Positions 7,601-23,864 of a stretch of DNA of 23,864 nt are shown here, one piece after another. This DNA is from a virus: positions 1-23,864 of IMG/VR virus record IMGVR_UViG_3300047548_001279. One strand, written 5' to 3'. The first letter of the stretch is position 1. Each line of letters opens with the position of its first letter. A program made the position numbers and the translations under genes. Below the pieces are notes generated by a model. That model saw nothing but the letters and a program-made list of their open reading frames with translations, did not search any database and was not told where the DNA came from.

Positions 7601-9498
7601 TAAATAATGCTTTCCCACTATTCAACGAAGTTGATGGTCTTAGTGAAAACCTGAGAGATGTACATATTGTAGATGTCAATGATATACAACCAGCAATTTC
7701 TACTGCGATAGTTTCTTCCGCATCAACAATTTCGAGTTTGAACATTTCCTATGCTGGAACAGGATACAACACATTAACAAATCCTGTTGTTGCTATTTCT
7801 TCTGCATTCATAAAGATGAAGGATCCAATTTATAATTGGAAAGGAACAAATAATGGAATATCAAGTTCATATACACTTAATAAAATTGCAATAGGAAAAC
7901 CAATTATTTCTGTTGGTTCAAGTGGTATAGTTGCAATTTCAACAAATGGTTTGGAGTGGAATCAATCATTTATTGGTTATGGTCAAACCATATCTTTCAA
8001 TTCTGTTGCTGTTGCAGAAACAAGTCGTTATTATGCAGTTGGACAGTTTGCAAAAGTAGTTACTGCCACTGGGATTAATACTACACTATCTCCTTGGTCT
8101 GAACTTAAATTATTGGAAGAGACAGTTGTTATTGGATTACCAGATCCAATAATTAATTTTTCTACCTACTATGGCACATTTAATGATGTTGCATATTCTT
8201 CATTGAGAAGAACTGTAGTTGCAGTTGGAGATGGGACAGGATTATTTACTGGTGTTGGCATAGGAACTACTGCATTATATAAGAGAAATCCTCCTGCATT
8301 TGTTAATTTAAATAGTGTGGCAACAAATAATGCGAGATTTGTTGTTGTTGGTGATGGTGGAATAATTTTACATTCCACTGATGGAAATATTTGGGATAGA
8401 ATAGTACAATTACCTACTACTAGAAATTTTGAAAAGGTCATTTGGACTGGAACAAAATTTGTTGCAGTTGGGCAAAATGGAACAATATTTGTTTCTTCTG
8501 CAGGAAACACAAATTGGACAAGAATAGTTCCAAATATTTCTGATGATATTCTAAACATCAAGTATGAGTATGGAATTTATGTTGCATTAACTTCTGCAAA
8601 TAAATTGATGTTCTCTTTAGATTTATCTTATTGGACAGAAAGAGATACAAAACAAAGCAATGTTGTTAAAGATTTGGCATTTATTCCTGCTCCACCTCCT
8701 CCAGAGTTAAGACTTCCTGGACCAATAATTGCAGAGGAAGGTAGATATTTACTAGTTGGGACTGCTGGAACTACAATGTATGCTGAACCAATTTATAATA
8801 GAGCAACTGCAACTTCTACTGTAACAAATGGAACTGTTTCCAACGTTAATATTGTAAATCCTGGTTTTGGTTATTCTCAATCATCTCCTCCTCCAGTTAT
8901 CATTGAGGGAGATAATATTACAACTGAAAAGATATATTCAATTAAAGCAAAAGGTGATTTTGGAATTATTAAATACGTAGGAGTTGGAGCAACTCATATT
9001 GATTTTGTGTTACAGAGTGAACAATATGATAATGTTTCATTAGGAATCGGTTATTCTTCACTTAACACATTTGGGGTAACAAATAGTCAATTAGAAGTAG
9101 GTGATTATTTTGTAATTTTTGATAGCAATTCTACTGTTGGTCATGCTTTAACTGGTATAACAACTTCAATAGGAGGAATGAATAATTATCCAGCATCTAA
9201 AGTTGGAACTGCAACTTCTTTCCTTGATGGTGTTTATAGAGTTGGTGCTGTAAGTCCTTCTGTTTCTGGAATAGTGACCGTAAGATGCTACTTTGCACCA
9301 GGTCCAGGAAATATTGCAATTCAGGTTAATACTAATACTAATGAAAATGGAGTATACGGTAAGTACACTTGGGGCAAGATTTATGATTTCCAAAATAGAA
9401 CTAGATTTAATCCAGAAAACTTCTTTGTAAACACAAATAATGGATTAGTTGGATTGTCAACTGCTCCAGATGTATACAGAACTCGTGGACTGAAATAG
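4657..9498 (+). CDS. Large mosaic baseplate-type structural protein (1613 aa)
   Basis: The protein is a string of small domains. Nine GxGY modules (such as GGTGYASTDPPKIEVLG and NAGSGYTSSPPPRVLI) are spread from the N-terminus to about residue 1416. Residues about 399-467 hold a TRG/YH domain (IDSEYMRI, NVTRGYLGS, GYHTVG), also present in the 2516-residue protein. Residues about 517-601 and 785-870 are two copies of a domain with the signature D-D-I-S-x-x-(F/Y)-x-G, also present in the 235-residue protein. Residues about 1079-1328 carry repeated (A/V)VG.GG.I..S.DG..W patterns, as in BNR or Ycf48-like beta-propellers. It lies directly upstream of gp8, where T4 has gp7, but I do not see the C-terminal region of T4 gp7, so I do not assign that symbol. 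It is probably a baseplate wedge or peripheral protein. No clear Shine-Dalgarno site precedes the ATG. Confidence 0.8.
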   Translation: MSTREVPGSGAVLIPNFNSEYGVSSFDVISGGTGYASTDPPKIEVLGTKTPLVEGLFYPVIVGGSIRRIAILNPGSGYFPTTEDLGTKVGIATTSYVESSLIVRKGPDSSPYLSVASTESSIIMQVEGGNGTSIFENGYNVAISTTIVGTSASITPDLSLNQNRFYGFFDPFPAYSTSGVGTQAKFSVFIVYNSSTGYPISTSLVLREGGRGYAVGDTVSISGTFMNGTSPTNDLSFTVSSVANTRIVGQANSTYSNLPSSTIVGLGSGATFNVTRNTFGDISSIIVQNGGVGYALTDKLKISGSLVGGVTPADDLYLTPKVLGTDKLPSTLYVTKIDNDNYKVSGLSTSNELNITSYGTGPQSFTFDNPNASAIISVDNIIQSPLYKRDLSPSLTSSVGVTTDVIYLSGISSITSLDTLQIDSEYMRINTIGIGSTNAFNVTRGYLGSRVGYHTVGAAITVLRGDFNISKDEIHFTTAPYGPTGYEGLKVNSSFTGRAFTRRFDPGTPNDKNLIFDDISTKFVGASSTEFFLQNYGNDIVGIYTNTNTVLTSSIDVNNNPIVLINNVPQISNTDFVVDNPGKNRIRFLTGTPGAGKIVRTGISTGYGYQPLVGAGASVTVSAAGTISAVTVRGFGSGYRTPPKIQILSNVGSGASLSATIGTGGTITSISIVNAGSGYTSSPPPRVLIGIPTSYSDLPLEYISGSSGNGIGAKASVVVGNQGNIIGFDIEDPGLYYKVGDILKVSGITTNPNIGIGFSEFRITVEETLTDKFSGFYPGQFIQFDDISQYFTGTKKKFTLTVSQGGTTEVLSLKSDPSTDIKIEYNLFVYLNDILQEPIKAYTFNGSRITFTEAPKENSKCTILFFRGSDLDVEQIDPPKTIKEGDSVQIGENILDPADRPQFERVVKKIISSDSLDTFTYDSIGINTDVTKERPLRWMKQTVDKIINGVLYSKSRPDLKARISPNTKLINNVFAEDEALYVNNAFPLFNEVDGLSENLRDVHIVDVNDIQPAISTAIVSSASTISSLNISYAGTGYNTLTNPVVAISSAFIKMKDPIYNWKGTNNGISSSYTLNKIAIGKPIISVGSSGIVAISTNGLEWNQSFIGYGQTISFNSVAVAETSRYYAVGQFAKVVTATGINTTLSPWSELKLLEETVVIGLPDPIINFSTYYGTFNDVAYSSLRRTVVAVGDGTGLFTGVGIGTTALYKRNPPAFVNLNSVATNNARFVVVGDGGIILHSTDGNIWDRIVQLPTTRNFEKVIWTGTKFVAVGQNGTIFVSSAGNTNWTRIVPNISDDILNIKYEYGIYVALTSANKLMFSLDLSYWTERDTKQSNVVKDLAFIPAPPPPELRLPGPIIAEEGRYLLVGTAGTTMYAEPIYNRATATSTVTNGTVSNVNIVNPGFGYSQSSPPPVIIEGDNITTEKIYSIKAKGDFGIIKYVGVGATHIDFVLQSEQYDNVSLGIGYSSLNTFGVTNSQLEVGDYFVIFDSNSTVGHALTGITTSIGGMNNYPASKVGTATSFLDGVYRVGAVSPSVSGIVTVRCYFAPGPGNIAIQVNTNTNENGVYGKYTWGKIYDFQNRTRFNPENFFVNTNNGLVGLSTAPDVYRTRGLK

Positions 9499-9528: not shown

Positions 9529-11094
9529 ATGCCTGCTATAATAACTGAACAATTTAGGGTGATGAATGCTGAAACTTTTGTAAAAAGTTTAGTTTCAGTT
9601 GGTAATACTGCAAATAATTACTATACCTTTATTGGTCAACCAAATAGCTTAAATCCACAGGCAGGTGGATCTGCTATTTGGGGGGATGGATTAACTCCAT
9701 TGGATGGTTTTGATGAAGAAAATCAAATAAAAGAAACCATCATTGCGATGAAGAAAATAACAAATGAAGATGTTCGTAGGATGATTAGAAAAGTCCAATG
9801 GACATCTGGAACAACCTATGAAATGTACCGTCATGATTATTCAATTTATAAAAAGACTCCAGTAACAAATCAACCAAGTTTATATGAATCAAATTTTTAT
9901 GTAATAAATGAAGATTTTAGGGTTTATATTTGCTTACAAAATGGAACAGACCCAGAAAACCCAGGGGGAAGGCCATCTTTTGACCAACCAACATTTATTG
10001 ATTTAGAAGCAAGACCAGCAGGAACAAGTGGAGATGGTTATATTTGGAAATATTTGTTTACAATAAAACCATCAGAAATTGTTAAATTTGATTCTATCGA
10101 ATTCATTCCAGTTCCAGAAAATTGGGGAGAAGTTGGGGAAACTATTGCAACTAAAAATAATGCTATTAATGGAAAAGTAGAAGTAATCACTATTACAGAT
10201 AGAGGAATAAATTACCAACCAATTTCCAAATCCTTTACTAATATCCCAATATTAGGTGATGGTACTGGAGGAAAAGCAACTATTACTGTTGATTCATTTG
10301 GAAAAGTTTCTGAAGTCTTTGTTACAGACGGTGGTTCTGGATATACTAAGGGAATTATTAAATTTGAACCAGGTGCCCCTGGTATACCATCAGAATTATC
10401 AAATGATGGAAGAACAGCATCATTTGATGTTATTATTCCACCTAAGGGAGGACATGGATATAATATTTACAGAGAACTTGGTGCATATAGAGTACTTGTT
10501 TATTCAAGATATTTAACAGATGAGCAAAACCCAGATATTATCCTTGGAAATGATTTTGCTAGAATTGGAATCATAAAAAATCCTACAATTTTTGGAAGTG
10601 ATACTGAAAAATTAACACTTGGGCAGGTAAGTGCATTAAATTCAATAAAATTATCTGGAGTAACAACACAGACAACATATCCAGTTGATTCTGTAATTAG
10701 ACAGACAGTAGGAACAGGAATGACTGCAATTGGATTTGTTGCTTCTTGGGATAATGTTACTGGTGTTCTAAAATATTATCAACCAGTTGGACTTGCTACT
10801 GCTGGTGTTAATTATAAGATTAATGGATTTAGTTCATCTCCAATTGCTGGTGGTTCATATACTATTGAATGTCCAACTATTATTGGTCCAGCACTATCAA
10901 TTGATAGGAACTTTACGGGCATAAGTACAGTAATAAATAGTAGGACATATCAATTGGGAAGCAACTTTGTTGCTGGAATATCATCTGCAGAATACAACAA
11001 AAGATCTGGTGATATAATTTACATAGACAATAGGAAAGCAATTCCAAGATCAGCAAGCCAAAAAGAAGATATTAAAATCGTATTGGAGTTCTAA
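9529..11094 (+). CDS. gp8: Baseplate wedge subunit gp8 homologue (521 aa)
   Basis: In T4, gp8 is a dimeric beta-sandwich protein of the baseplate wedge that helps hold the gp6/gp7/gp10 periphery. Matches to T4 gp8 from memory are GDGYIWKYLFTI (about residue 165), YRVLVYSRYL followed by FARIGIIKNPT (T4 FRQISIITNPL), and the C-terminal GDIIYIDNRKAIP..EDIKIVLEF (T4 GEMIYMENRPPI..EEINILFTF). The ATG at 9529 (MPAIITEQFR) is preferred over the TTG at 9520 because this is the usual start of the marine family. At 521 residues it is much longer than the 334 of T4. The extra sequence is a pair of GxGY-type modules (residues about 223-280) and about 110 residues between IIKNPT and the C-terminal motif. 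The short gap before the next gene suggests co-expression. Confidence 0.9.
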   Translation: MPAIITEQFRVMNAETFVKSLVSVGNTANNYYTFIGQPNSLNPQAGGSAIWGDGLTPLDGFDEENQIKETIIAMKKITNEDVRRMIRKVQWTSGTTYEMYRHDYSIYKKTPVTNQPSLYESNFYVINEDFRVYICLQNGTDPENPGGRPSFDQPTFIDLEARPAGTSGDGYIWKYLFTIKPSEIVKFDSIEFIPVPENWGEVGETIATKNNAINGKVEVITITDRGINYQPISKSFTNIPILGDGTGGKATITVDSFGKVSEVFVTDGGSGYTKGIIKFEPGAPGIPSELSNDGRTASFDVIIPPKGGHGYNIYRELGAYRVLVYSRYLTDEQNPDIILGNDFARIGIIKNPTIFGSDTEKLTLGQVSALNSIKLSGVTTQTTYPVDSVIRQTVGTGMTAIGFVASWDNVTGVLKYYQPVGLATAGVNYKINGFSSSPIAGGSYTIECPTIIGPALSIDRNFTGISTVINSRTYQLGSNFVAGISSAEYNKRSGDIIYIDNRKAIPRSASQKEDIKIVLEF

Positions 11095-11100
11095 AGAAAA

Positions 11101-14100
11101 ATGCCTCAAAATACCAATTTAAATGTATCTCCATACTTTGATGATTTTGATTCAAATAAAAATTATCAAAGAGTATTATTTAAACCAGCGACTCCAATAC
11201 AAGCAAGAGAATTAACTACACTACAGTCAATTCTCCAAAATCAAATTGAAAAGTTTGGACAGCACTTCTTTAAAGAAGGTGCAATGGTTATTCCTGGACA
11301 ATTATCCTATGATTCAAACTATACATGTGTTCAAATTGACGAAACTCATTTAGGAATACCAGTTTCATTGTATATTGATAGTCTTGTAGGAAAATTAATT
11401 AAAGGTGAAACTAGCGGAGTAACCGCAAAAGTAGAAAACTATATTACAAATCAAATTTCAGATAGAAAGAATTATACTCTTTATATTAAATATCAAAGTT
11501 CAAGTGATACTAATTTCTCAACAAATAAATTTGTTGATGGAGAAAATCTTTTAGCAGTCAATGATATAACTTATGGAATTTCTGCAATTAGAAGTGGTTC
11601 ATCTTTTGCAACTTCAGTAATTTCAAATTCTACTGCTATTGGTTCTGCAGCAAAAATAGCATCTGGTGTTTATTTCATTAGAGGATTCTTTGTTACAGTA
11701 AATCCACAAACAGTTATATTAGATCAGTATACAAATACACCTTCATATAGAGTTGGACTTTTAATTAATGAAGAATTGGCAGTAGCATCCAATTCTTATA
11801 ATGATTTGTTTGATAATGCTCAGGGATTCTCTAATTTTTCAGCACCAGGAGCTGATAGATTAAAGTTTGATGTAACTTTAATTAAAAAGGAAATTACAGA
11901 TTTTAATGATGAAAATTTTGTCGAATTACTTAGAGTAGAAAAGGGAGTAATTCAAAAATTCGTAAAAACAACCAATTACGATTTAATTAAAGATGAATTG
12001 GCAAGAAGGACATATGATGAATCTGGAGATTACTATGTAAGACCATTTAATATTTCTCTAAAAGAATCATTAAATGACCAGATTGGAAACAATGGAATGT
12101 TTGTATCCAATCAACAAACAAAACAAGGAAATATTCCTAGTGATTCTGTTGGTTGTATTTTAGTATCACCAGGAAAAGCAGTAGTTAGAGGATATGATAT
12201 TGAAACTATTGATACTACTATCATAGATTTCAATAAGCCAAGAACCACAGAAAAAGTAGTAAATCAATCAATACCTTTTAGTGTTGGCAGACAAATTGTA
12301 TTGAACAATGTTTATGGTTCTCTTCCAGTTGGTTTTGGTTCAACATCTCAAGTAGCACTTTATTCTGGAAGAACGGCTTCCCCAGGAACTCCTGCTGGAA
12401 AGAAAATTGGTGTTGCTAGAATTTATGATTTAAAATTGAAAAATGCAGGATATGCAAATTCATTGAGTGAATTTGATTGTTCTCTTTTTGATATTCAGAC
12501 TTATACAACAATAACTTTAAATACATCTGTCACTTTAAGTGCATCTACTTTTATTGAAGGAAAGAATAGTTCCTCTAGTGGATACGTAGCAGAAGATGTT
12601 GTAAACACAAATATAATTAACTTATACCAAGTTTCTGGTTCATTTAAAGTTGATGAAGGAATTATAATTGATGGAATAGAAGATGGAAGAGTAATTACAT
12701 CAGTTAGAGATTATAACCTTACAGATGTACATCAACTTGTAGGAATAAACACAGTATTGGGAATTGGAACATTTACTGCAGATCCACTTCTTACAAATAA
12801 AATTTCGTTAACAGAACCTGGAGTTCAATATACTATTACCAGTGGTGCATCAGGTATAAGTACAGTTACAACTTCCACTAGTAATTTCTATGTTGGAATA
12901 AAAACAGGTGATATTGTATCTTACACAAAACAAGGCAACTCAATACCAACCTACAATGAAGTTATAAGTATTAATACTTCAGAGAAGAAATTAATTCTTT
13001 CTCCAACAAACAGTGTTGCTGGAATTTCAGATGGAACTCTTCCATCTTCTACAATTACCGCAAATGACTTTAAAAAAGTAACATTAAATGTATTAAACAC
13101 TTCTAATGCATTTCTTTATGCAAAACTTAGAGATAATAATATCTCTAGTCTTGATTTAAGTTCATCTTCCATCTCTATAAGAAAATCATATCTTATAACA
13201 GTAGTATCAAATTCTTTCAATGGAAATTTAGAAACAGATACTAATTTAACTTTGGAATCATTTGATGAGGAAGATTATAGTCTTACCTATATTTCCAATG
13301 GAATTATCGAATCTTTAGATAATCAAAAAGTATATGTTTCTGGAAGGACTATAAGTTTAGTTAATTTAAGTGGGAATGGTCAGGCAATTCTTACTGTAAC
13401 GTATAAAAAAGTAAATACAAAATTAAAGAAAAAACTTTTTAATAGATGTTCAAGTATTATTGTTGATGGTTCATCTTTAGTTTCTTCTGGCATTGGAAGA
13501 ACAACTTTGAACGATGGTTTAACATATAGAAGACCTTATGGACTTAGAGTTCAGGATAAATCAATATCATTAAATATTCCTGATGTTGTTAATGTTCTTG
13601 GAATTTATGAATCTTCTTCAACATCAGACCCATCTTTACCTAGAGTCTATTTTACCTCATTAAATTCAAGTTTAAACAACTTTATAAAGGGTGAAAAGTT
13701 GGTTGGAAGCACAAGTGGTGCTGTAGCTGCTTATGTTTCAAACGATAACACAAATAGTATAGAAGTAGTTTATTTGAATGAAAATAGATTTGCTTTGGGT
13801 GAGCAAGTGACATCTTCAGAAACAAATATTTCTGGTACTGTTAGTGCTATTTCAGTTGGTGATAAAAATATTAAGGATAATTATATTTTAGATAATGGAC
13901 AGAGATCTGAATACTATGATTATTCAAGGATAATCAGAAAGAAAGAAGTTTCTGCTCCAACAAAGAGAATAAGAGTAATATTTAATAATTACACAATCAA
14001 TCCTGCAGATGATGGAGACTTTGTTTCTGCAGATTCCTTTGATAGAGATAGATACACGAAAGATGTTCCAGTAATTGATGGATACAGAAATACTGATATT

Positions 14101-17100
14101 GTTGATTTGAGACCAAGAGTTTCTGAATTTAATCCAACAACTGCAACAAAATCTCCCTTTGAATATCTTTCTAGAAGATTCTCATTAAATGCTAATGCAT
14201 CTAACAACATTTTAACAAAAGATAGAACTATAAATCTATCTTATAGTTATTTCCTTCCAAGAATTGATAAACTATTCTTAACCAAAGAAGGAACATTTGT
14301 AATTAATAGTGGTGTTCCATCCAATTCTCCAAAGGCACCAAATAATTTAGATTCTGCTTTAGAAATAGCAACTTTCTATTATCCTCCATATCTTTATGAT
14401 ATGAAGGATGTAAGTATTTCTATCTCCAGTCATAAGAGATATACCATGAAGGATATCTCAAGGTTGGAAAATAGATTAGCAAACGTTGAGTATTATAGTT
14501 CACTATCTCTATTAGAAACTGATACAAAAAATCTATCAATTAGAGACCCACAAACAGGACTAGATAAATTCAAAGCAGGATTCTTTGTTGATAACTTTAA
14601 GTCCTATGATGGTGGAGATATAACAAATCAATCTTATAAAGCAAGTGTGGATTCTTCACTTGGTGTTTTAAGACCACAGCATTACACTACTTCTGTTGAT
14701 TTAATTTTAGGTTCCGAAGCAGTTATTGGTATTGGAACAACTTCCAATCCTAATATAGATTTGAGATTTGCGACTGATTTAGGTTCCAAGAATGTAAAAC
14801 GTATAGGTGATGTAGTATGCTTAGATTATTCTGATGTAATTTACACTGAAAATAAATTTGCTACTAGAACTGAAAATGTAAATCCATTCAACACTCCAAG
14901 TTGGATTGGAACAATCGAATTAAATCCTTCAACAGATACTTGGATAGAAACTAGAAGAACACAAAGAACACAAGATATTGAAGGAAATTATAATACAGCA
15001 ATTCAAATGCTTGGTGTTGATACCAATACTGGATTGTCACCAATTAACTGGAATGCATGGGAAACAAATTGGACAGGAACATCCACAGTACAGGGTCCTG
15101 TAATTACACAAATTCAAAATCCATCTACATTTTTATCATCATCTACAGTTACATCTGGAAATGTTATAACAACAACAGATATTTTCCAGGATTCTGTCAC
15201 GCAGTTCAGAAATAACACAATTACAACTACGACTGAACAGACAAGACAAGGAATTCAATTTGGAGTTAGTGAAAGATTCGATACAACTAGTCTTGGAGAT
15301 AGGGTTGTTTCTAGAGCAATTCTAACATTGATGAGATCTAGAAATATTGAAATTATAGCAAGAAGATTGAAACCATCTACAAGAATGTACGCATTCTTTG
15401 ATAATAGGGACATGACAAATTTTGTTGTTCCTAAACTTCTTGAAGTTAGAATGACAAGTGGAACATTTATTGAAGGGGAGACTGTTACTGGATTCATGCC
15501 TGTAACTGGTGTAAACAGATCAATAACATTTAGATTGGCAAAACAAAACCATAAGTATGGTCCATACAATCAACCAACTGAATTCTATAAAGAGAATCCA
15601 TACAACCCAACAAGTTCCATTTCTGGTTCATATTCGTCAACTACAACCATTTTAAATGTTGATACTGCAAGTTTAGAAAATCAAGCAGATTCTAGATTCT
15701 TTGGTTCTGTTGCACCATCTATGCAATTAGTTGGTGCATTGAGTAATGCGATTGCTACAGTAACTGATATTAGATTGGTAACAGATTCTTCTGGAACTTT
15801 TATTGGAACTTTATTCATTCCCGATCCAACGATTCCATCAAATCCAACTTTTGATACTGGAACAAAGACTTTAACTTTAACCACAAGTTCAACAAATTCT
15901 ACAGTTGGTGGTTCAGTAGATAGTATTGCAGAATCAAACTTCACTTCTAGTGGAACTGTAGATAATGTAGAGAGTCTTACGTTAAGAATTAGAAATGCAG
16001 ATATTGAAAGAAATATTAGAACAGATTCTAGAACTTTAACTGAAACTGAAGATAGATTAGTTGCAAACACAACTCTTACAAACAGATCTGTAGTCTCTAC
16101 TAGAGTAATTCAAACTAGATGGGTAGACCCTCTTGCACAAACATTTGAAGTTAATGAAAATAATGGTATTTTTGTAACCAAGTGTGATGTATTCTTTAGA
16201 ACCAAAGATGAAGCAAATATTCCAATTACACTGCAGGTAAGAACTTCTTATCTTGGACTTCCATCACAAGAAATTCTTCCATTCGGGGAAGTAGTTTTAA
16301 ATCCAGACCAAATTAATGTTTCTGAAGATGCTTCAGTTCCAACAACATTTACATTCCCTGCACCAGTATTTTTAGAAGGTGGTAATGATTATGCAATCGT
16401 CTTAATCTCCAACTCAAATTCATATAATGTTTGGATTTCTAGAATGACCGAAGTTGATGTATCAACCATCAACAAACCAGAAGCAGAAAAAATTATTGTT
16501 TCTCAACAACCAACACTTGGTTCACTATTCAAGTCACAAAATGGGGCAACTTGGGAACCTTCTCAGTTAGAAGATTTAAAATTTGTTCTTTATAGAGCAG
16601 AGTTTAAATCAACTACAGGAAGTTTTAGATTCTACAACCCAGACTTGGGAGTTGGCAATAGACAGATTGCTTCATTGAGACCAAATCCAATAGTTGCATA
16701 TTCTAAGAAAGTTTTAGTGGGACTTTCTGGAACTTTAACTACTTATGATGTAACTAATTTAATTCCAGGAACAACAATTCTACAATCAAATTATCCAAAT
16801 TTCTCAGGTAAATTAGCAAGTATTGTTGGTGCTATCGGAATTAATTCAACCTTAAGCATTACAAATTCAGGAATTGGATACACGCAGAATGCTACTTATT
16901 CTGATGTAGCATTAACTACTATTTCTGGAAGAGGTTCTGGTGCTAAGGTCAACTTAACTGTTCAATCTGGTGTTGCAGTTGCTGCTACAGTATCCATCGG
17001 TGGAACTGGATATGCAATTGGTGATACACTAACTGTTTCAAGTAGTTTAACTGGAAACTTTGGCAAAAATCTTGTTCTGACTATTCCAAATTCTGTTGGA

Positions 17101-18651
17101 ATAATATCCTCGTTTAACTCACTAATTATTGATCAAGTTCAAGATGATATAAACACATCAAATGTTGCTAATGAGATTTCATATATTAATCCAAGCAATG
17201 GAATTTCAACAATTACAAATGGTTTAGTAAATTATACTGAACTATTAGAAGATGGATTACACTTCAAAGTTAATCACAATAACCATGGAATGTATTCCAA
17301 CAATAATAAAGTAACATTGTATGGAATTGAATCAGATATTCCTCCAGAAAAGACAGTAAGTGATTACAACCAAGCAGCAACTGGTAATATTCAAGTTTCT
17401 TCTGTTGGTATCTTTACTAGTTTTGAAAATGTTGGAGTTTCTTCTGATAATCCAGGTTATATAAAAATTAATAATGAAATTATTAGATATACTGGTTATG
17501 AGGCATCGACAAATACTCTTACTGGAATAACAAGAGGTGTTGATATTGATCAAACTGGAGTCTTTAGTGTTAATATGATTCCATATCATGTTGCTGGTTC
17601 TCCAGTATTCAAATATGAATTCAATGGTGTTTCATTGAGAAGAATAAACAGAACTCATTCATTTAGTGATGTTGATGCTAATAAGTATCCAATAACTTTG
17701 GATAGTTACCACATTAAAGTTAGAATGGAAGAAAGAGGAAAGGATAGAAAGTTTGGTCCACCAAAACTCTTCTTCAAAGAAACTAAGACTGGTGGAACAT
17801 ACGATTTAAATATTCTTTCACCTAGCACAAATACCATATCTGGTCCAAAAGCATCTCAAAATATTCAATTTGATATCATTAGACCAAATATACAATCATT
17901 GATGCCAGAAACAACCTCAATTGCAGCAAAGATAAGAACAGTAACAGGAAAGAGTGTAAATGGAGAAGAACTTCCATTTAGTGCAAGAGAATTTGAATCT
18001 ATATCATTAAATTCAAATAATTATTTTGAAAATCCAAGGATTATAGCATCAAGAGTAAATGAAATTGATAATTTACAAAGTTATCTTGGATACAAATCAT
18101 TTGTTATGGAAATGACTTTATCTACAAGTGATACTAAAGTTTCACCAATTATAGATTTAGATAGGGTCAATATTATTACAACAATGAATAGAATTGATAA
18201 ACCAATAACAAATTATCTCTTAGATCCTAGAGTTAATAGTCTTTATGATGACCCATCATCTGCAATTTACGTTTCTAAGATAATAAGATTACAAAAGTCT
18301 GCAGATAGCCTTAAAGTGTATTTTGATGCTTATAGAGATACAACAAATGATATTATAGTCATGTATCGTTTGCTTAGACCAGATACCCCAGATGATCAAC
18401 AATTATTTGAACTATTCCCTGGATTCAAAAATGTTGATGCAAATGGAAATGTGATAAATCCAAAAAATAGTGATGGCACACCAGATACAAATGTTTTACC
18501 ATCATCAACTGAATCTGAATATAGAAGTTATGAGTATACTGCTAAAGATTTGCCAATGTTTAATGGATTCCAGATAAAAATCATTATGACTGGAACCAAT
18601 CAATCAGTTGTTCCAAAGATTAAAGATTTAAGGGCAATAGCAGTACTATGA
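11101..18651 (+). CDS. Giant DUF4815-like virion structural protein (2516 aa)
   Basis: The N-terminus (NVSPYFDDFDSNKNYQRV, then ARELTTLQSILQNQIEKFG) is the hallmark of DUF4815 proteins, large tail or baseplate proteins of marine T4-like phages. Three GE-x-x-x-G-TSG-type modules occur (residues about 97, 480 and 865). Residues about 1418-1443 hold a conserved RRLKPSTRMYAFFDNRDM segment and residues about 1673-1786 a DPLAQTFEV..G.FVTKCDVFFRTKD beta domain, both familiar from this family. Residues about 1922-1985 carry two GxGY modules and residues about 2100-2174 a TRG/YH domain shared with the 1613-residue protein. The C-terminus (RSYEYTAKDLPMFNGFQIKIIMTG) reads as a closing beta domain. It follows gp8 by 6 bases and its stop overlaps the next ATG (ATGA). 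Location in the peripheral baseplate or as a fibre-anchoring element is inferred. Confidence 0.85.
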   Translation: MPQNTNLNVSPYFDDFDSNKNYQRVLFKPATPIQARELTTLQSILQNQIEKFGQHFFKEGAMVIPGQLSYDSNYTCVQIDETHLGIPVSLYIDSLVGKLIKGETSGVTAKVENYITNQISDRKNYTLYIKYQSSSDTNFSTNKFVDGENLLAVNDITYGISAIRSGSSFATSVISNSTAIGSAAKIASGVYFIRGFFVTVNPQTVILDQYTNTPSYRVGLLINEELAVASNSYNDLFDNAQGFSNFSAPGADRLKFDVTLIKKEITDFNDENFVELLRVEKGVIQKFVKTTNYDLIKDELARRTYDESGDYYVRPFNISLKESLNDQIGNNGMFVSNQQTKQGNIPSDSVGCILVSPGKAVVRGYDIETIDTTIIDFNKPRTTEKVVNQSIPFSVGRQIVLNNVYGSLPVGFGSTSQVALYSGRTASPGTPAGKKIGVARIYDLKLKNAGYANSLSEFDCSLFDIQTYTTITLNTSVTLSASTFIEGKNSSSSGYVAEDVVNTNIINLYQVSGSFKVDEGIIIDGIEDGRVITSVRDYNLTDVHQLVGINTVLGIGTFTADPLLTNKISLTEPGVQYTITSGASGISTVTTSTSNFYVGIKTGDIVSYTKQGNSIPTYNEVISINTSEKKLILSPTNSVAGISDGTLPSSTITANDFKKVTLNVLNTSNAFLYAKLRDNNISSLDLSSSSISIRKSYLITVVSNSFNGNLETDTNLTLESFDEEDYSLTYISNGIIESLDNQKVYVSGRTISLVNLSGNGQAILTVTYKKVNTKLKKKLFNRCSSIIVDGSSLVSSGIGRTTLNDGLTYRRPYGLRVQDKSISLNIPDVVNVLGIYESSSTSDPSLPRVYFTSLNSSLNNFIKGEKLVGSTSGAVAAYVSNDNTNSIEVVYLNENRFALGEQVTSSETNISGTVSAISVGDKNIKDNYILDNGQRSEYYDYSRIIRKKEVSAPTKRIRVIFNNYTINPADDGDFVSADSFDRDRYTKDVPVIDGYRNTDIVDLRPRVSEFNPTTATKSPFEYLSRRFSLNANASNNILTKDRTINLSYSYFLPRIDKLFLTKEGTFVINSGVPSNSPKAPNNLDSALEIATFYYPPYLYDMKDVSISISSHKRYTMKDISRLENRLANVEYYSSLSLLETDTKNLSIRDPQTGLDKFKAGFFVDNFKSYDGGDITNQSYKASVDSSLGVLRPQHYTTSVDLILGSEAVIGIGTTSNPNIDLRFATDLGSKNVKRIGDVVCLDYSDVIYTENKFATRTENVNPFNTPSWIGTIELNPSTDTWIETRRTQRTQDIEGNYNTAIQMLGVDTNTGLSPINWNAWETNWTGTSTVQGPVITQIQNPSTFLSSSTVTSGNVITTTDIFQDSVTQFRNNTITTTTEQTRQGIQFGVSERFDTTSLGDRVVSRAILTLMRSRNIEIIARRLKPSTRMYAFFDNRDMTNFVVPKLLEVRMTSGTFIEGETVTGFMPVTGVNRSITFRLAKQNHKYGPYNQPTEFYKENPYNPTSSISGSYSSTTTILNVDTASLENQADSRFFGSVAPSMQLVGALSNAIATVTDIRLVTDSSGTFIGTLFIPDPTIPSNPTFDTGTKTLTLTTSSTNSTVGGSVDSIAESNFTSSGTVDNVESLTLRIRNADIERNIRTDSRTLTETEDRLVANTTLTNRSVVSTRVIQTRWVDPLAQTFEVNENNGIFVTKCDVFFRTKDEANIPITLQVRTSYLGLPSQEILPFGEVVLNPDQINVSEDASVPTTFTFPAPVFLEGGNDYAIVLISNSNSYNVWISRMTEVDVSTINKPEAEKIIVSQQPTLGSLFKSQNGATWEPSQLEDLKFVLYRAEFKSTTGSFRFYNPDLGVGNRQIASLRPNPIVAYSKKVLVGLSGTLTTYDVTNLIPGTTILQSNYPNFSGKLASIVGAIGINSTLSITNSGIGYTQNATYSDVALTTISGRGSGAKVNLTVQSGVAVAATVSIGGTGYAIGDTLTVSSSLTGNFGKNLVLTIPNSVGIISSFNSLIIDQVQDDINTSNVANEISYINPSNGISTITNGLVNYTELLEDGLHFKVNHNNHGMYSNNNKVTLYGIESDIPPEKTVSDYNQAATGNIQVSSVGIFTSFENVGVSSDNPGYIKINNEIIRYTGYEASTNTLTGITRGVDIDQTGVFSVNMIPYHVAGSPVFKYEFNGVSLRRINRTHSFSDVDANKYPITLDSYHIKVRMEERGKDRKFGPPKLFFKETKTGGTYDLNILSPSTNTISGPKASQNIQFDIIRPNIQSLMPETTSIAAKIRTVTGKSVNGEELPFSAREFESISLNSNNYFENPRIIASRVNEIDNLQSYLGYKSFVMEMTLSTSDTKVSPIIDLDRVNIITTMNRIDKPITNYLLDPRVNSLYDDPSSAIYVSKIIRLQKSADSLKVYFDAYRDTTNDIIVMYRLLRPDTPDDQQLFELFPGFKNVDANGNVINPKNSDGTPDTNVLPSSTESEYRSYEYTAKDLPMFNGFQIKIIMTGTNQSVVPKIKDLRAIAVL

Positions 18652-18866: not shown

Positions 18867-19202
18867 ATGTCTGCCAAGATTATAAATCTAGTATTAGAAC
18901 AAGGTGCAGATTTTCAAAGCACTTTTACGATTTATAATGAAAACGGTTCAAGATTGAACCTCTTCAATTATACTGCGATAAGTTACATCAAAAAGAGCCC
19001 ATATTCATCAAAAACTTATCCATTTACAATATCATTTCCAGATAGAGCTCAAGGAAAAATAATGGTTTCCATGGCAAAATCTGAAACTTCCTTAATGGAA
19101 GGTGGAAGATATGTATATGATGTTGTAATTACATCTCCATCAAATTACAATACTAGAGTTGTACAAGGAAGTTTACTAGTTACTCCTGGTGTTAGCATAT
19201 GA
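18867..19202 (+). CDS. Ig-like/BppU-type beta-sandwich structural protein (111 aa)
   Basis: The whole protein fits one beta-sandwich domain: an opening EQGADFQSTFTIYNENG, a middle strand LNLFNYTAISYIKKSP, an SFPDRAQGKIMVSMAKSETS edge, then GGRYVYDVVITSP and a closing VVQGSLLVTPGVSI. This order (Gly-Ala-Asp start, G-x-Y-x-Y-D-V strand, V-V-x-G-x-x-x-V-x-P end) is common in small phage baseplate and fibre-attachment domains, including the N-terminal part of BppU-like proteins. No Shine-Dalgarno site is seen. The stop overlaps the next ATG by four bases (ATGA), so this protein and the 235-residue one are probably made together. Confidence 0.75.
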   Translation: MSAKIINLVLEQGADFQSTFTIYNENGSRLNLFNYTAISYIKKSPYSSKTYPFTISFPDRAQGKIMVSMAKSETSLMEGGRYVYDVVITSPSNYNTRVVQGSLLVTPGVSI

Positions 19203-19906
19203 GCAATTATGATGTAGTAGTATCATCTCCAAATTTTAATGTTAATTTAGTCCAAGAGGACCAATATAACATTGGGGTAAATTATGAAGCACCTCTGAGA
19301 AGTGTGCAATACACCAATTTGATTTTGGATAATATTTCATCTCAATTTAATGGTTCTACTACATTATTTCAATTGGCAGTAAATGGACAACCATATACTC
19401 CAGCAAATGAGCAGCAATTGGTCATTTCAATTAATGGAATTATATTAAGACCTGTTATTGATTATCAAGTTTCTGGAAGTACTCTTTCGTTTACAAATCC
19501 TCCAGCAGCAGGAGCAAATTTTTCTGGAATAGCATTACAAACAACGGCAGATTTGACAAGAACTATTGTTTTCATGGTTGATAATGGTTCTCTAGATATT
19601 ACTCCTGGAAATAAAGGGTATTTAACATTAGATGTCACTGGAACAATAGAATCCTGGACGATACTTTCGGAAACAACTGGGACAATAGCATTTAACATAG
19701 AAAAATCTTCTTATAGTAATTTCCCAAATAATTTTAATTCAATTGTTGGGAGTGAATATCCAATACTAAATAATCAAAACAAAAATAAAGACGACAACCT
19801 TACAACTTGGACAAAAACATTAGAATTAGGTGATGTTTTAAGATTCAATGTATTGAGTTGCACTGGGGTCCAAAGATGTTCTGTATTTTTGAAGTTAAAG
19901 ATTTGA
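19199..19906 (+). CDS. Structural protein with shared D-N-I-S-x-x-F domain (235 aa)
   Basis: Residues about 44-116 hold a domain with DNISSQFNG, then QLVISINGIILRP, DYQVSGSTLSFTNPPAAG and FSGIAL. It matches two copies inside the 1613-residue protein and is familiar from many marine phage virion proteins. The C-terminal half (residues about 120-235) is a second beta-rich domain (GYLTLDVTGTIESWTILSE, then LGDVLRFNVLSCTGVQRC) that reads like a sandwich or head domain. It starts inside the previous gene's stop (ATGA). A 61-base gap with a late promoter follows, so it is the last gene of its transcription unit. A role as fibre connector or adhesin is inferred. Confidence 0.75.
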   Translation: MSNYDVVVSSPNFNVNLVQEDQYNIGVNYEAPLRSVQYTNLILDNISSQFNGSTTLFQLAVNGQPYTPANEQQLVISINGIILRPVIDYQVSGSTLSFTNPPAAGANFSGIALQTTADLTRTIVFMVDNGSLDITPGNKGYLTLDVTGTIESWTILSETTGTIAFNIEKSSYSNFPNNFNSIVGSEYPILNNQNKNKDDNLTTWTKTLELGDVLRFNVLSCTGVQRCSVFLKLKI

Positions 19907-19967: not shown

Positions 19968-21353
19968 ATGGCACTATTAGTACCAGATTGTGGAGAACTT
20001 CAATCCTTAAGGTATCTTGTAAATAGTAATCATGAGATTCCAAGAAATTTAATTCTAAAACTTTATTCCAGTGACACTAATCCAGCGGAATCAGATGTTC
20101 CTGCTCAAGATAAATTCTATGAGCCATATGATGCTTCTGGTAATATTGGATATGGTACTGCACCATCAAATGGATATCCAGCAGTAATCAATAATAGATT
20201 TGACCAAGATTATGCAAATCAATATGGTATCCTTTTAAATGGAAACCTTTGGAACGTAAGAACCATTGTGAACCCAATCGTCACTACAACTGGTTCTGGA
20301 ACAGTAAATCAATATACAATAACAGTCTCCTCAACAACTAATATTGCTGTTGGTCATTACGTAGAAGGCGGTGGAGTAGGTTCCCGTGCTACTGTTGCTG
20401 CTATTGATGGTAATACAATCGTCCTAACCGTTCCAAACACTGGTACTTTCTTAAACCAATCACTTTCATTTGGTAGAGGAACAACTACAGCATCATATCC
20501 TGAGCAAACATTTACATTCAGTTCTGCAGCAAATAACCAGTATGGTTATTACCTAGTTAGAGCAAATAACATGCCAGTTAGCATCCATGGTGTTCAGGAT
20601 GCAGTGACAGTATCTACAGCAGTAGCAGTTGCAAAAACACAAACTACTGGAACAATTGGTAGAAACTACGTTACTCTATTTGATAAAAAGTACAGTCCAA
20701 CTGGTGTTGGTTCAACTGGATATTTCTCGGTAGATGTTGACTCACCAACTGGAATTACTACAAATCAAAGAGTTTCTGGTACAGGAATTGCACCTGGAAC
20801 AAGAGTAGTGGGAGTTGCAGGAACCAATAGAATTGTATTAGATAAGGCAACCACAACTACAGTAAGTGGTATTGTAACTTTCACCGAGAACGTTGGTGAA
20901 AATATTACCGTTGGTATGGCAGTAACTCACGGAAATGTTGTTGGGGAAGTTAATGCAATCCCAGAAAATACTTTAGTTACTGGTTTTGATGAAAGTCAAA
21001 GAATTGTATATTTAAGCAATAACCTGGTAAACAACATTCAGGCTGCTACTGGTGCTACTATTTACTTCAATGCTTCTCAGGTAAGTGTTGGTGCAACTAC
21101 TCATGGATTGGTTCCAGGAGATGTAATTTACATTGCAGCAGGAACTGGTAATACAACCACGGCATCATCAACATATACAATTTTTGAGACACCAGATGCA
21201 AGCACATTCAGAACTACTCCAGCACTTTCTGGTGTAGGAAGTGCGACACTTTACAGCAGCATCATGTTTGCTGAAAGATTTACAAACGGTCCTTACAACA
21301 TTCAGAACAACGGAGACCAAATTAAGGTCACCCTAAATATCAGCCTCGACTGA
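19968..21353 (+). CDS. Virion structural protein with three GTxVxxV repeats (461 aa)
   Basis: The N-terminus (MALLVPDCGELQSLRYLV, then NLILKLYSSDTNPAESD) and the C-terminus (ERFTNGPYNIQNNGDQIKVTLN) are familiar from tail or adhesin-like proteins of several phage groups. Between them lie three copies of a beta module with the pattern VG..V.G.G(I/V)..GT.V..V....I.L. The gene has its own late promoter, strong Shine-Dalgarno site and downstream intrinsic terminator. Its codons, mainly towards the 3' end, use C-ending forms (AAC, TAC, ATC, AGC, TTC) far more than the neighbouring genes, as expected for a highly expressed protein. No membrane or enzyme motif is seen. It is probably an abundant decoration or fibre protein; exact location in the virion is unknown. 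Confidence 0.8.
   Translation: MALLVPDCGELQSLRYLVNSNHEIPRNLILKLYSSDTNPAESDVPAQDKFYEPYDASGNIGYGTAPSNGYPAVINNRFDQDYANQYGILLNGNLWNVRTIVNPIVTTTGSGTVNQYTITVSSTTNIAVGHYVEGGGVGSRATVAAIDGNTIVLTVPNTGTFLNQSLSFGRGTTTASYPEQTFTFSSAANNQYGYYLVRANNMPVSIHGVQDAVTVSTAVAVAKTQTTGTIGRNYVTLFDKKYSPTGVGSTGYFSVDVDSPTGITTNQRVSGTGIAPGTRVVGVAGTNRIVLDKATTTTVSGIVTFTENVGENITVGMAVTHGNVVGEVNAIPENTLVTGFDESQRIVYLSNNLVNNIQAATGATIYFNASQVSVGATTHGLVPGDVIYIAAGTGNTTTASSTYTIFETPDASTFRTTPALSGVGSATLYSSIMFAERFTNGPYNIQNNGDQIKVTLNISLD
20292..20474 (+). repeat. GTxVxxV module, copy 1 in the 461-aa protein
   Basis: It runs from GSGTVNQYTITVSSTTNI through VGHYVEGGGVGSRATVAAI to TIVLTVPNTG. The pattern is the widespread phage beta repeat 'V G x x V x G x G I x x G T x V x x I'; here ATV replaces the usual GTxV. 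Confidence 0.65.
20703..20882 (+). repeat. GTxVxxV module, copy 2 in the 461-aa protein
   Basis: It contains GYFSVDVDSPTGITTNQRV, then SGTGIAPGTRVVGVAGTNRI and VLDKATTTT. It is the most canonical of the three copies. Confidence 0.65.
20886..21068 (+). repeat. GTxVxxV module, copy 3 in the 461-aa protein
   Basis: It contains ENITVGMAVTHGNVVGEVNAI, PENTLVTGF and RIVYLSNNLV. It is more diverged than copies 1 and 2 but keeps the order of strands. Confidence 0.5.
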
Positions 21354-21379: not shown

Positions 21380-21413
21380 GGAGGGGTTGCCAAAGCGATC
21401 CCTCCTATTTTTT
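21380..21413 (+). terminator. Strong intrinsic (rho-independent) terminator
   Basis: An 11-base-pair stem, GGAGGGGTTGC against GCGATCCCTCC with two G-U pairs, closes a CAAA tetraloop and is followed by TATTTTTT. It lies 26 bases after the stop of the 461-residue gene and is by far the most GC-rich stem in an AT-rich region. Confidence 0.9.
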
Positions 21414-21418
21414 ATTGT

Positions 21419-21424
21419 AGGAGA
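21419..21424 (+). promoter_or_regulatory. Shine-Dalgarno site (AGGAGA) for the 21430 gene
   Basis: AGGAGA lies 5 bases before the ATG at 21430, just downstream of the terminator's T-run. No NATAAATA promoter is visible between the terminator and this site. Confidence 0.6.
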
Positions 21425-21429
21425 CTTGT

Positions 21430-22350
21430 ATGGTATTGCGTTACGTCGGACCAAATTATACATTTGAACAACAACGTGTTGAGATTAACAATCTTGCCAA
21501 TGATGTTGCTGGATTGGGAACTCCTACATATTCAATTACCGCTGGTTATGCAACTACAGCAGGAATTGCAACAGTTGCACAAGGACTAACAGGAACTCCA
21601 AATGTTACTATTGGTGTTGTTACTGCTACATCAGTAGTTATTGGATCAGCAGTTACTATTACTTCTGGAGGAATTAGAGCTTCTGGTATTGTAACTGCAT
21701 CTTCTTTCCGTCCAAGTAGTGGTTATTATCAATCATCAAATGGAACAAATGCATTTTATGTTTTTGATACAAGTGGTGATGTATCTTTCCAAGGAAAAAT
21801 AGTAACAAATTATATTAGAAGTAATACAAATTTAAATCCAACGATTACAGTTTCGGATCTTGACCTTCAATTTGCAAGAAATGTTACTATTTCTGGTATT
21901 ACAACAATCACTGGTAATTTAAACGCACCTGGAAATTATTATGTAAAACTAGCAAGAACAACAGATCAAACTGCTCTTAACGGTACTGATACTTTAATTG
22001 GATTTTCTGTAGTTAGTGATCCAAATAATTGGTATAGTGGAATTACAACTCGCACTACACCAACTGTTGCTGGAACTTATCATGTCGATTTAATGGTTAA
22101 TTGGTTGGAGGGTACGATTACAAATAATCAAACAAATATTCAAATCAGAAAAAACGGAAATACATTTGCATTGAGTATGGTTGGAATACATACCTTCTCT
22201 TATACTCAAAATGCTTGCGGGATTGTTACGATGAATGGAACAACAGATTATATTGATGCCACTGTTTATACATCAAATCCAACCAGTCAAGTCATTAGGG
22301 GACCTAGTGATGGTGCCTGGACGAAGATGGAGGTATTTAAAATTAACTAA
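21430..22350 (+). CDS. Short tail fibre with C1q-like head (306 aa)
   Basis: The N-terminus (VGPNYTFEQQRVEINNLANDV) looks like a short attachment and coiled region seen in marine T4-like fibres. Next come TAGYATTAGIATVAQG and VGVVTATS repeats, the same grammar as in the fibre at the left edge of the window. Residues about 172-306 read as a C1q/TNF-like jelly-roll head: YVKLARTTDQTALNGTDT, AGTYHVDLMVNW, IQIRKNGNTFALSM, GTTDYIDATVYTS and a closing WTKMEVFKIN. Such heads form trimers at fibre tips and often bind receptors. The gene follows an intrinsic terminator without a visible promoter, so it is probably read by partial readthrough. Its stop overlaps the next ATG by one base (TAATG). Confidence 0.8.
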   Translation: MVLRYVGPNYTFEQQRVEINNLANDVAGLGTPTYSITAGYATTAGIATVAQGLTGTPNVTIGVVTATSVVIGSAVTITSGGIRASGIVTASSFRPSSGYYQSSNGTNAFYVFDTSGDVSFQGKIVTNYIRSNTNLNPTITVSDLDLQFARNVTISGITTITGNLNAPGNYYVKLARTTDQTALNGTDTLIGFSVVSDPNNWYSGITTRTTPTVAGTYHVDLMVNWLEGTITNNQTNIQIRKNGNTFALSMVGIHTFSYTQNACGIVTMNGTTDYIDATVYTSNPTSQVIRGPSDGAWTKMEVFKIN

Positions 22351-23864
22351 TGGCAATATTCTCCTATACAACTGGATCTGACAGCCATAGGATTAGTCTT
22401 TATGCTAATGAAACCATTAGCAACTACTCCTCTGTTTTGCTGTCTGATCTTACTTTCATAGGAGATCCAGAATTTAAACTCTCATCATATTCCGAAGAAC
22501 TTGAAGAGCAAAGAACATATTCTTATAATGAATCTGCTTTAGTTAATTTTGAATCCGAGGATTACGGATTAATAAATGAAGTTTTTAGTTATTATGATGA
22601 TTTTGGATTAATTACTGATGAAATAACCTCCGAGAAACAGAAGTTTGATTATGGAACTATTACAATTCTCAGTAGTAATATTCCTTTTGGAACACTAAGT
22701 ATTTCTACAGAATTTGCAGATGTAAGTCTGGTAAGAAGAAGTGTTGGTGGAATAACATTTCTTGTTCAAGGAAAAGCAAAGATATACGTTTTACCAATAC
22801 ATGTCGGTTCTGGAAGGATTCGAGGACTTGGAGAGTCTCAGAATTCCAGAGTTGCATACCAATCTGGATCTGGAAAACTATTTGGATTCAGTGGAGCAGT
22901 TTATGCTACCACCAACGCACCATCAGAAGGAATTAAACGTTCCATTAATTTCTCTGGTGGTGCTTTTCATGCATTCTCAAGAGGAAATTACTCTTCAACT
23001 GGCACATTCTCTGCATTTACTGGTGCTGGTCTCTCAAGAGTTATTATTACAAAGGCAGAAACAAATATATTCAGATTCTCTGGTTCTGCGGTCGAGAAGA
23101 ACGCAGAAAACTATGTTGGTTCAGGAAATCTATTTGGATTCGTTGGTCATGCAGAAAGAGTTACTTATGACTACAACGAATCTTCTGTAGTAAGACCAGA
23201 AGGAATTGATTATGGATTTATTGCGGATGCTTATACTAGTGATGATGATTACGGATTAATATCTGAAATAGTAAGTCCACAAAAACCATGGAATAATATT
23301 AATTATGGATTTATTATTGATAATGACACAAGAATTCCATTCGGAAAACTAAAACTAGACTCACTAACCAGTGTTAACCAGTCTCCATCAATATTTGGTA
23401 CTGATGGAATTTCTATATTTGGTTCAGCAAGAATTTTTGTACTACCAATTCACAAGGGTTCTGGACAATTCGTTCTTGGGGGAAGTGCAGAACCAAAAGC
23501 AGCACTATCACATATTGGTTCTGGCTCACTATTTGCATTTACTGGTTCTGCAGAATCTATTGGAGCAAAACAAGAGTCCACAAATCTCTTTAGATTCTCT
23601 GGTTCTGCTAAAGATTCAATTGCACCAGCACCGCATGTTGGTTCTGGTCGTATCTTTGGATTTACTGGTGCTGGTCTCTCAAGAGTTATCATTACAAAGG
23701 CAGAACCAAATATATTCAGGTTCTCTGGTTCTGCATTAGAAAAGAATACAGAAAACTATATTGGTTCTGGTTCACTCTTTGGATTTGTTGGTCACGCAGA
23801 AAGAGTCACTTATGACTATAACGAATCTTCTGTAGTAACTATTGATGGACTTGACTATGGATTT
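22350..23864 (+). CDS. Large tandem-repeat tail fibre protein, 3' partial (505 residues visible)
   Basis: The frame from the ATG at 22350 (MAIFSYTTGSDSHRI) is open for 505 codons to the last base of the window, so the gene continues beyond it. The ATG overlaps the previous stop (TAATG). After a leader of about 70 residues the protein consists of a 216-residue unit, a 215-residue unit and the start of a third. Each unit has DYG(L/F)I elements, an IPFG(T/K)L segment, a K/R-I-(Y/F)-VLPIH segment, and several copies of a short GSG.LF.F.G.A(E) repeat, and ends with AERVTYDYNESSVV. This repeat style is familiar from large marine cyanophage fibres. It is predicted to be beta-rich, with no membrane or enzyme motif. 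The apparent small reading frames at 22762-23190 and 23371-23739 are out-of-frame shadows of it. Confidence 0.85.
   Translation, partial: MAIFSYTTGSDSHRISLYANETISNYSSVLLSDLTFIGDPEFKLSSYSEELEEQRTYSYNESALVNFESEDYGLINEVFSYYDDFGLITDEITSEKQKFDYGTITILSSNIPFGTLSISTEFADVSLVRRSVGGITFLVQGKAKIYVLPIHVGSGRIRGLGESQNSRVAYQSGSGKLFGFSGAVYATTNAPSEGIKRSINFSGGAFHAFSRGNYSSTGTFSAFTGAGLSRVIITKAETNIFRFSGSAVEKNAENYVGSGNLFGFVGHAERVTYDYNESSVVRPEGIDYGFIADAYTSDDDYGLISEIVSPQKPWNNINYGFIIDNDTRIPFGKLKLDSLTSVNQSPSIFGTDGISIFGSARIFVLPIHKGSGQFVLGGSAEPKAALSHIGSGSLFAFTGSAESIGAKQESTNLFRFSGSAKDSIAPAPHVGSGRIFGFTGAGLSRVIITKAEPNIFRFSGSALEKNTENYIGSGSLFGFVGHAERVTYDYNESSVVTIDGLDYGF
22560..23207 (+). repeat. Fibre super-repeat, unit 1 (216 codons)
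   Basis: It runs from DYGLINEV to just before the next DYGFIADA. It contains IPFGTLSIS, KIYVLPIHVGSG, FTGAGLSRVIITKAE and GHAERVTYDYNESS in that order. Confidence 0.8.
23016..23192 (+). repeat. 177-base conserved block, copy A
   Basis: This is the most conserved part of the super-repeat (FTGAGLSRVIITKAE to YNESSVV). By hand count it differs from copy B at 20 of 177 bases and 5 of 59 residues. Confidence 0.8.
23208..23852 (+). repeat. Fibre super-repeat, unit 2 (215 codons)
   Basis: It has the same order of elements as unit 1: DYGFIADA, IPFGKLKLD, RIFVLPIHKGSG, FTGAGLSRVIITKAE and GHAERVTYDYNESS. A third unit begins at 23853 with DYGF. Confidence 0.8.
23661..23837 (+). repeat. 177-base conserved block, copy B
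   Basis: It is the partner of copy A, 645 bases downstream, aligned without gaps. Most differences are synonymous third-position changes. Confidence 0.8.

Follow-up and report, generated by a model that had tools for sequence, protein, structure and literature searches.

A giant repeat-chain gene of T4-like cyanophage-type viruses with whole-unit length differences between relatives and conversion between units

Several phage tail fibre genes are described as varying by internal duplication or at their C-termini. The tail fibre gene of EfV12-phi1 gains 1.8-kb tandem copies as the host becomes resistant (PMC6365445), and duplications in T4 gp37 expand host range according to Tetart et al. 1996, as cited in PMC6365445 and PMC9603124. 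Repeat patterns and variable C-termini have been reported for the tail fibres of marine phages (PMC3909814). In cyano- and pelagimyophages, the area downstream of VrlC is a variable host recognition cluster (PMC7029224).

The window analysed here (i.e. the whole stretch of DNA) is a viral fragment of 23,864 bases, in which a run of baseplate and tail genes leads into a giant repeat gene. The region of this gene is the host recognition cluster described downstream of VrlC (PMC7029224). The features upstream of the giant gene are as follows.

4657..9498, + strand: baseplate wedge subunit, PHROG 2885, gp7-like by position in S-SSM7
9532..11094, + strand: baseplate wedge subunit, gp8-like, PHROG 438
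11101..18651, + strand: DUF4815 protein of 2516 aa, counterpart of the 'virulence-associated structural protein' of S-CAM phages
18867..19202, + strand: 111-aa protein, PHROG 1084 / PHROG 3304, L-shaped tail fibre assembly
19199..19906, + strand: virion structural protein of 235 aa, PHROG 10330
19968..21353, + strand: conserved 461-aa gene, the constant left neighbour of the fibre slot, PHROG 10467
21380..21415, + strand: terminator-like hairpin (21380-21405) and T run
21430..22350, + strand: 306-aa fibre-like gene in the exchangeable slot, its stop overlapping the ATG of the giant gene (TAATG)

The giant gene was always found directly downstream of the DUF4815 gene and the 111-, 235- and 461-aa genes, within the baseplate/tail gene run. 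Downstream of the giant gene, contig L003 encodes a tail protein with an Mtd_N domain and a tail fibre with CBM5/12 modules. Two adjacent glycine-rich and unusually cysteine-rich proteins, of which the first matches PHROG 4205, follow the tail fibre genes of this contig (L003, 19429-21427). The window also encodes a 628-aa protein without a PHROG match (2534-4420), and the fibre slot of L039 holds a 644-aa protein (..SDVISQMESALTWLG..) that resembles a homologue of it.

The giant gene opens with the ATG at 22350 and continues without a stop codon through the end of the window. Its parts are listed below.

22350..23864, + strand: giant repeat protein gene, 505 codons seen, running off the window; PHROG 11522
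22350..22517, + strand: N-terminal segment, residues 1-56, holding a cassette of ~33 residues at about residues 15-48
22518..23165, + strand: large unit 1, residues 57-272 (216 aa), a DYG.I module followed by small GSG.LF.F.G repeats
22518..22697, + strand: DYG.I module of unit 1, about residues 57-116, ending in PFG.L (from sequence and alignment)
23166..23810, + strand: large unit 2, residues 273-487 (215 aa)
23166..23354, + strand: DYG.I module of unit 2, about residues 273-335, equivalent of the conversion tract of L004/L005
23811..23864, + strand: first residues (488-505) of large unit 3, truncated by the window end

Large units start with a Y.YN.S motif at residues 57, 273 and 488 (i.e. 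spacings of 216 and 215). Self-comparison of the protein gave a score of 171 at offset 215, as compared to a best score of -48 for 500 shuffles over all offsets of 150-300. Units 1 and 2 are 48% identical across 209 aligned residues, with near-identity over the final ~45 residues. No repeat was reported for the DNA by Tandem Repeats Finder because the unit copies have diverged. Within the units, the small repeats have the consensus GSGSLFtFvgaTEs....p..tGLFKFsGsA.EknTe.Yv, a period of 41 residues made of two halves of ~20 residues (~20.5). An HMM of this period, built from 39 segments, found 797 matches among family members as compared to none after shuffling, and autocorrelation of hydrophobicity peaked at lags of 41, 20, 82 and 81. 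The motif spacing and the offset-215 score confirm what an earlier note had described from this DNA, namely an uninterrupted 505-codon frame in which two head-to-tail units, of 216 and 215 residues, are followed by the beginning of a third, and its smaller repeats inside the units were borne out by the HMM and the autocorrelation lags. The repeat observation in the window is real.

Full-length relatives place this architecture in context. The family HMM of PHROG 11522, a group of cyanophage proteins, matched the window protein with an E of 6.3e-38 and its relatives with values from 1.6e-143 (L002) to 2.9e-205. In scans of IMG/VR, about 30 distinct related genes were readable to a stop codon and encode proteins of 1114-3032 aa. 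These genes occupy the same slot in the virion-gene block of T4-like cyanophage-type viruses, and the finished genomes of S-CAM1 and S-CAM3, in which the products are hypothetical proteins of 2130 and 2558 aa, respectively, have the gene order of the window. The nearest named relatives infect Synechococcus. No work on the giant gene of S-CAM1 or S-CAM3, nor any description of the family, was found in a literature search. L002, the closest relative of the window, matches it in 86% of nucleotides along 9.9 kb of upstream sequence and in 91% within the portion of the gene that both contain. Its protein (1617 aa) has large-unit starts at residues 24, 240, 455 and 669, and the remaining ~900 residues consist of small repeats. 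Four large-unit starts are present in L004 and L005, three in L030 and L006, and 13-14 shorter ones in L008; each large unit consists of the DYG.I module (60-90 residues) and then ~150 residues of small repeats. Since large units are confined to the N-terminal part in the genes of full-length relatives, the two-level repeat proposed in the earlier note, which holds in the window, describes the N-terminal part of the gene. A C-terminal motif, P.(R/K)..(Y/F)..II-stop, was present in nearly all of 30 distinct gene ends; it was scored in relatives alone, the window ending before the C-terminus of its giant protein. The last ~10 residues of the giant protein are kept while the rest diverges to about 25% identity, and perhaps this motif has a role in docking or assembly. 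The repeat chain of S-CAM3 (L016, 12765-20441) is interrupted at about residues 195-370 and again at about 1340-1495 by non-repeat inserts of ~150 residues, which are similar to each other and resemble inserted binding domains.

The product of the giant gene is probably a structural adhesion fibre of great length, or the long flexible shaft of one, of a T4-like cyanophage-type virus. It would be an extended, probably trimeric beta-fibre that forms part of the virion and contacts the host, and its length may have some functional use, such as the tuning of reach or avidity put forward in the earlier note. No recognisable binding domain was found in the giant protein itself. A Pfam search of the window protein returned nothing above the cut-off, including any gp37 or tail fibre domain; UCR_6-4kD, Ribosomal_L35Ae and FliC_D2 were all below it and were discarded. 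Sequence and profile searches of the PDB gave no credible structural relative, the matches to a tick histamine-binding protein (E 0.04-0.07) and to Lockin (E 0.85) being weak and chance-like, and a search with a 10-row alignment of the C-terminus gave no usable pattern. AlphaFold2 monomer models of the 505 aa of the window and of the C-terminal 517 aa of L002, with 12 alignment rows each, had a pLDDT of 27 throughout and are unusable.

Exchange was evident both beside and within the giant gene. Homology of the window to relatives without its fibre gene ends at 21413-21419, just past the hairpin. For most relatives, this terminator-like hairpin is exactly where homology gives way to the exchangeable fibre slot. 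The distal part of the 306-aa fibre of the window exhibits 88-90% nucleotide identity to L037/L038 as compared to a match of only 76% between the 461-aa genes of the window and L037, and therefore the fibre piece has moved. An N-terminal cassette of ~30-33 residues in the giant protein is present in the window, L030, L006 and L007 and absent in L002, L004, L005 and L019. The cassette and such a fibre gene occurred together or were missing together in three comparisons (i.e. L037 versus L035, L006 and L007 versus L019, and the window and L030 versus L002), yet the cassette is absent from L004 and L005, which have other fibre genes. The giant protein is 77-86% identical between relatives as compared to 89-99% for its neighbours. 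In L090 (1933-8823), the flanks are 100% identical in nucleotides to those of L092 while the giant gene is 67-78% identical over the last two thirds; the giant genes of L090 and L091 are nearly identical and the flanks differ. Either L090 is a recombinant that arose naturally, or the contig is chimeric. The pair L012 and L014 was considered as a case of allele exchange in one background and was dropped, the comparison with L091 leaving L090 as recombinant or chimeric.

A different role has also been considered for the giant protein, in which it would serve as a structural connector or rope, holding other fibres to the baseplate or keeping them spaced and making no host contact, with receptor-binding tips carried by the exchangeable neighbours. 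The homologue of the 461-aa protein in S-SCSM2R carries the annotation 'tail fiber rope protein', and separate fibre genes lie immediately upstream, differing between genomes and combining a common N-terminus (..VG.N.TFEQQR..IN) with exchangeable ends. Retention of the C-terminal motif in nearly all 30 ends likewise contrasts with an adhesin, whose tip would be expected to vary. The greater divergence and recombination of the giant protein relative to its structural neighbours is, however, more typical of host-contact proteins, and a connector without host contact is considered rather unlikely. It counts against the preferred adhesion fibre or shaft that the neighbouring exchangeable fibres could do the receptor binding instead.

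The earlier note had also suggested that the length of the fibre can change by whole-unit recombination. Aligned pairs of relatives exhibited clean in-frame block differences of 81 aa (L021/L022, L035/L037 and L052/L045) and 82 aa (L012/L014), a size equal to four small repeats (i.e. 81-82 residues), and a difference of 243 aa between L004 and L030 corresponded to one large unit (4 versus 3 large units). Unit number thus varies across relatives rather than being constant, with 3 versus 4 large units. The 461-aa and DUF4815 genes, used as controls, had no indel of at least 10 aa in the pairs allowing comparison. Assembly of repeats from metagenomes could produce such differences by collapse or chimerism. 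This artefact would fit L053 and L054, in which genes that are otherwise identical (100%) differ by 780 nt between exact 195-nt repeats; this pair was downgraded as proof of length change within a population due to these flanking repeats, and the difference may be a true deletion or an assembly collapse. A chimera could similarly give the combination of L092 flanks and L091 giant gene observed in L090. The 81-, 82- and 243-aa differences, in contrast, occur almost without an exact flanking repeat between genes that are 77-94% identical. The exact repeat at the indel edges is only 5-16 nt in most pairs (58 nt in L045), and collapse is therefore unlikely. Finished isolate genomes also differ between species (2130 versus 2558 aa) and several lengths recur across independent metagenomes, making artefact a very improbable source of the differences in unit number.

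Within species, the length of the gene was constant. All seven records of S-CAM1 had 6393 nt, all four of S-CAM3 had 7677 nt, and in several populations 3-8 contigs from separate metagenomes agreed in length. Copy-number polymorphism within a species or population, of the kind expected for rapid switching resembling phase variation, was not encountered in the records of S-CAM1 and S-CAM3, and the pair L053 and L054, with its possible assembly collapse, is the only candidate. With length constant within species, the change is slow and on an evolutionary scale, as opposed to a rapid switch. The suggestion of length change by whole units hence stands among relatives (81, 82 and 243 aa; 3 versus 4 large units) and fails within species: fibre length shifts over evolution and stays fixed within a species. 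Whether these shifts are used by the phage is a separate matter, as length change and conversion may be passive by-products of repeated DNA that are tolerated at many shaft lengths and have no adaptive role. The giant gene is under purifying selection overall, with a dN/dS of about 0.2-0.4 and no gene-wide sign of positive selection, and all lengths from 1114 to 3032 aa are kept and are constant within species, as a passive process would allow. Constancy within species and unit-precise steps are, however, equally compatible with selection, and tandem duplication in the tail fibre gene of another phage arose repeatedly under host resistance (PMC6365445). A passive origin is a serious possibility, falling somewhat short of an even chance.

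Conversion between units was detected in L004 and L005. Over most of their length, the units of these genes pair by position (i.e. unit 2 of L004 with unit 2 of L005, etc.). In codon columns 18-80 (~190 nt), grouping of units 2 and 3 within a genome has the support of 20 sites, as compared to one site for grouping by position. The flanking columns 0-18, 80-138 and 200-255 favoured descent, with ratios of within-genome to descent sites of 0:9, 1:21 and 0:19, respectively. A four-sequence AU test rejected unit-by-unit descent for columns 18-80; the segments were picked after inspection of the data, which weakens the formal p-value and not the contrast. Over columns 58-80, units 2 and 3 are 100% identical in L004 and 98% identical in L005, and 80-82% identical between the genomes. 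An insert of 31 aa, absent from every large unit of L002, occurs in three of those of L004/L005; a tree test of this insert in units 2-4 gave an AU value of 0.16 for unit-by-unit descent. Grouping within genomes at columns 18-80 combined with descent in the flanks is the mark of gene conversion between units inside the giant gene, with the number of units unchanged. The conversion was concentrated in the DYG.I module. An extended reading treats the large units as a self-correcting multivalent adhesin, in which the DYG.I module would be the putative binding site, conversion would keep the module copies alike within a fibre while they diverge between lineages, a new variant would spread to all positions, and gain or loss of units would set valency. 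This reading is regarded as speculative and improbable.

For the favoured adhesion fibre or shaft, the following course of events is proposed. The chain would be made of ~20-residue beta-type repeats paired as 41-residue periods, and in the lineage of the window several such periods together with a DYG.I module make up the large unit of 215-250 residues near the N-terminus. Repeats in the DNA would allow recombination within the giant gene and between it and those of relatives. Unequal exchange would gain or lose whole in-register periods, gene conversion would copy tracts between units while leaving their number unchanged, and selection seems to hold one length per species and the C-terminal motif. 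Few unexplained genes of T4-like cyanophages are larger than those for giant 'hypothetical proteins'. One such gene can now be described as a chain of repeats, altered both in whole-unit steps and through internal conversion, beside fibre genes that are swapped. With this description, it can be tested whether the attachment of cyanophages to picocyanobacteria depends on the length of the fibre and the homogeneity of its repeats, and short-read assemblies may misjudge the length of the giant gene.

The relatives of the giant gene in PHROG 11522, represented by S-CAM1 (2130 aa) and S-CAM3 (2558 aa), share its position, upstream genes and C-terminal motif. These S-CAM proteins are only about 25-28% identical to the window protein and differ in unit length and number, the 215-residue large unit being specific to the clade of the window. 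More distant counterparts are S-SSM7_110 and S-SCSM2R_111 ('TolB'), which occupy the same slot and have GSG/LF-type repeats and the endings ..RTYVVII and ..RTFTIIV, respectively. The repeats of both have diverged, with three repeat-HMM matches in S-SSM7_110 and a non-repeat insert of ~340 residues in S-SCSM2R_111. In the latter, a positional counterpart of the giant gene (L098, 15131-19240), the insert lies at about residues 380-720 and contains regular repeats of ~50 residues, which give it a propeller-like look. In the large tail fibre gene of EfV12-phi1, copy number likewise changes by entire in-frame segments. Its change is, however, fast, selected in the laboratory and made of identical copies, whereas that of the giant gene lies between species and involves diverged units; the two systems were compared by description. 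The T4 gp37 long tail fibre is alike in principle, being a long fibre of a T4-like phage altered by internal duplication, but the window protein has no gp37 or tail fibre Pfam domain and no match to the PDB relatives of gp37. Copy-number change in tail fibre genes is already known, and the giant gene is an unusually large and layered example with conversion between units that is ordinary in principle.
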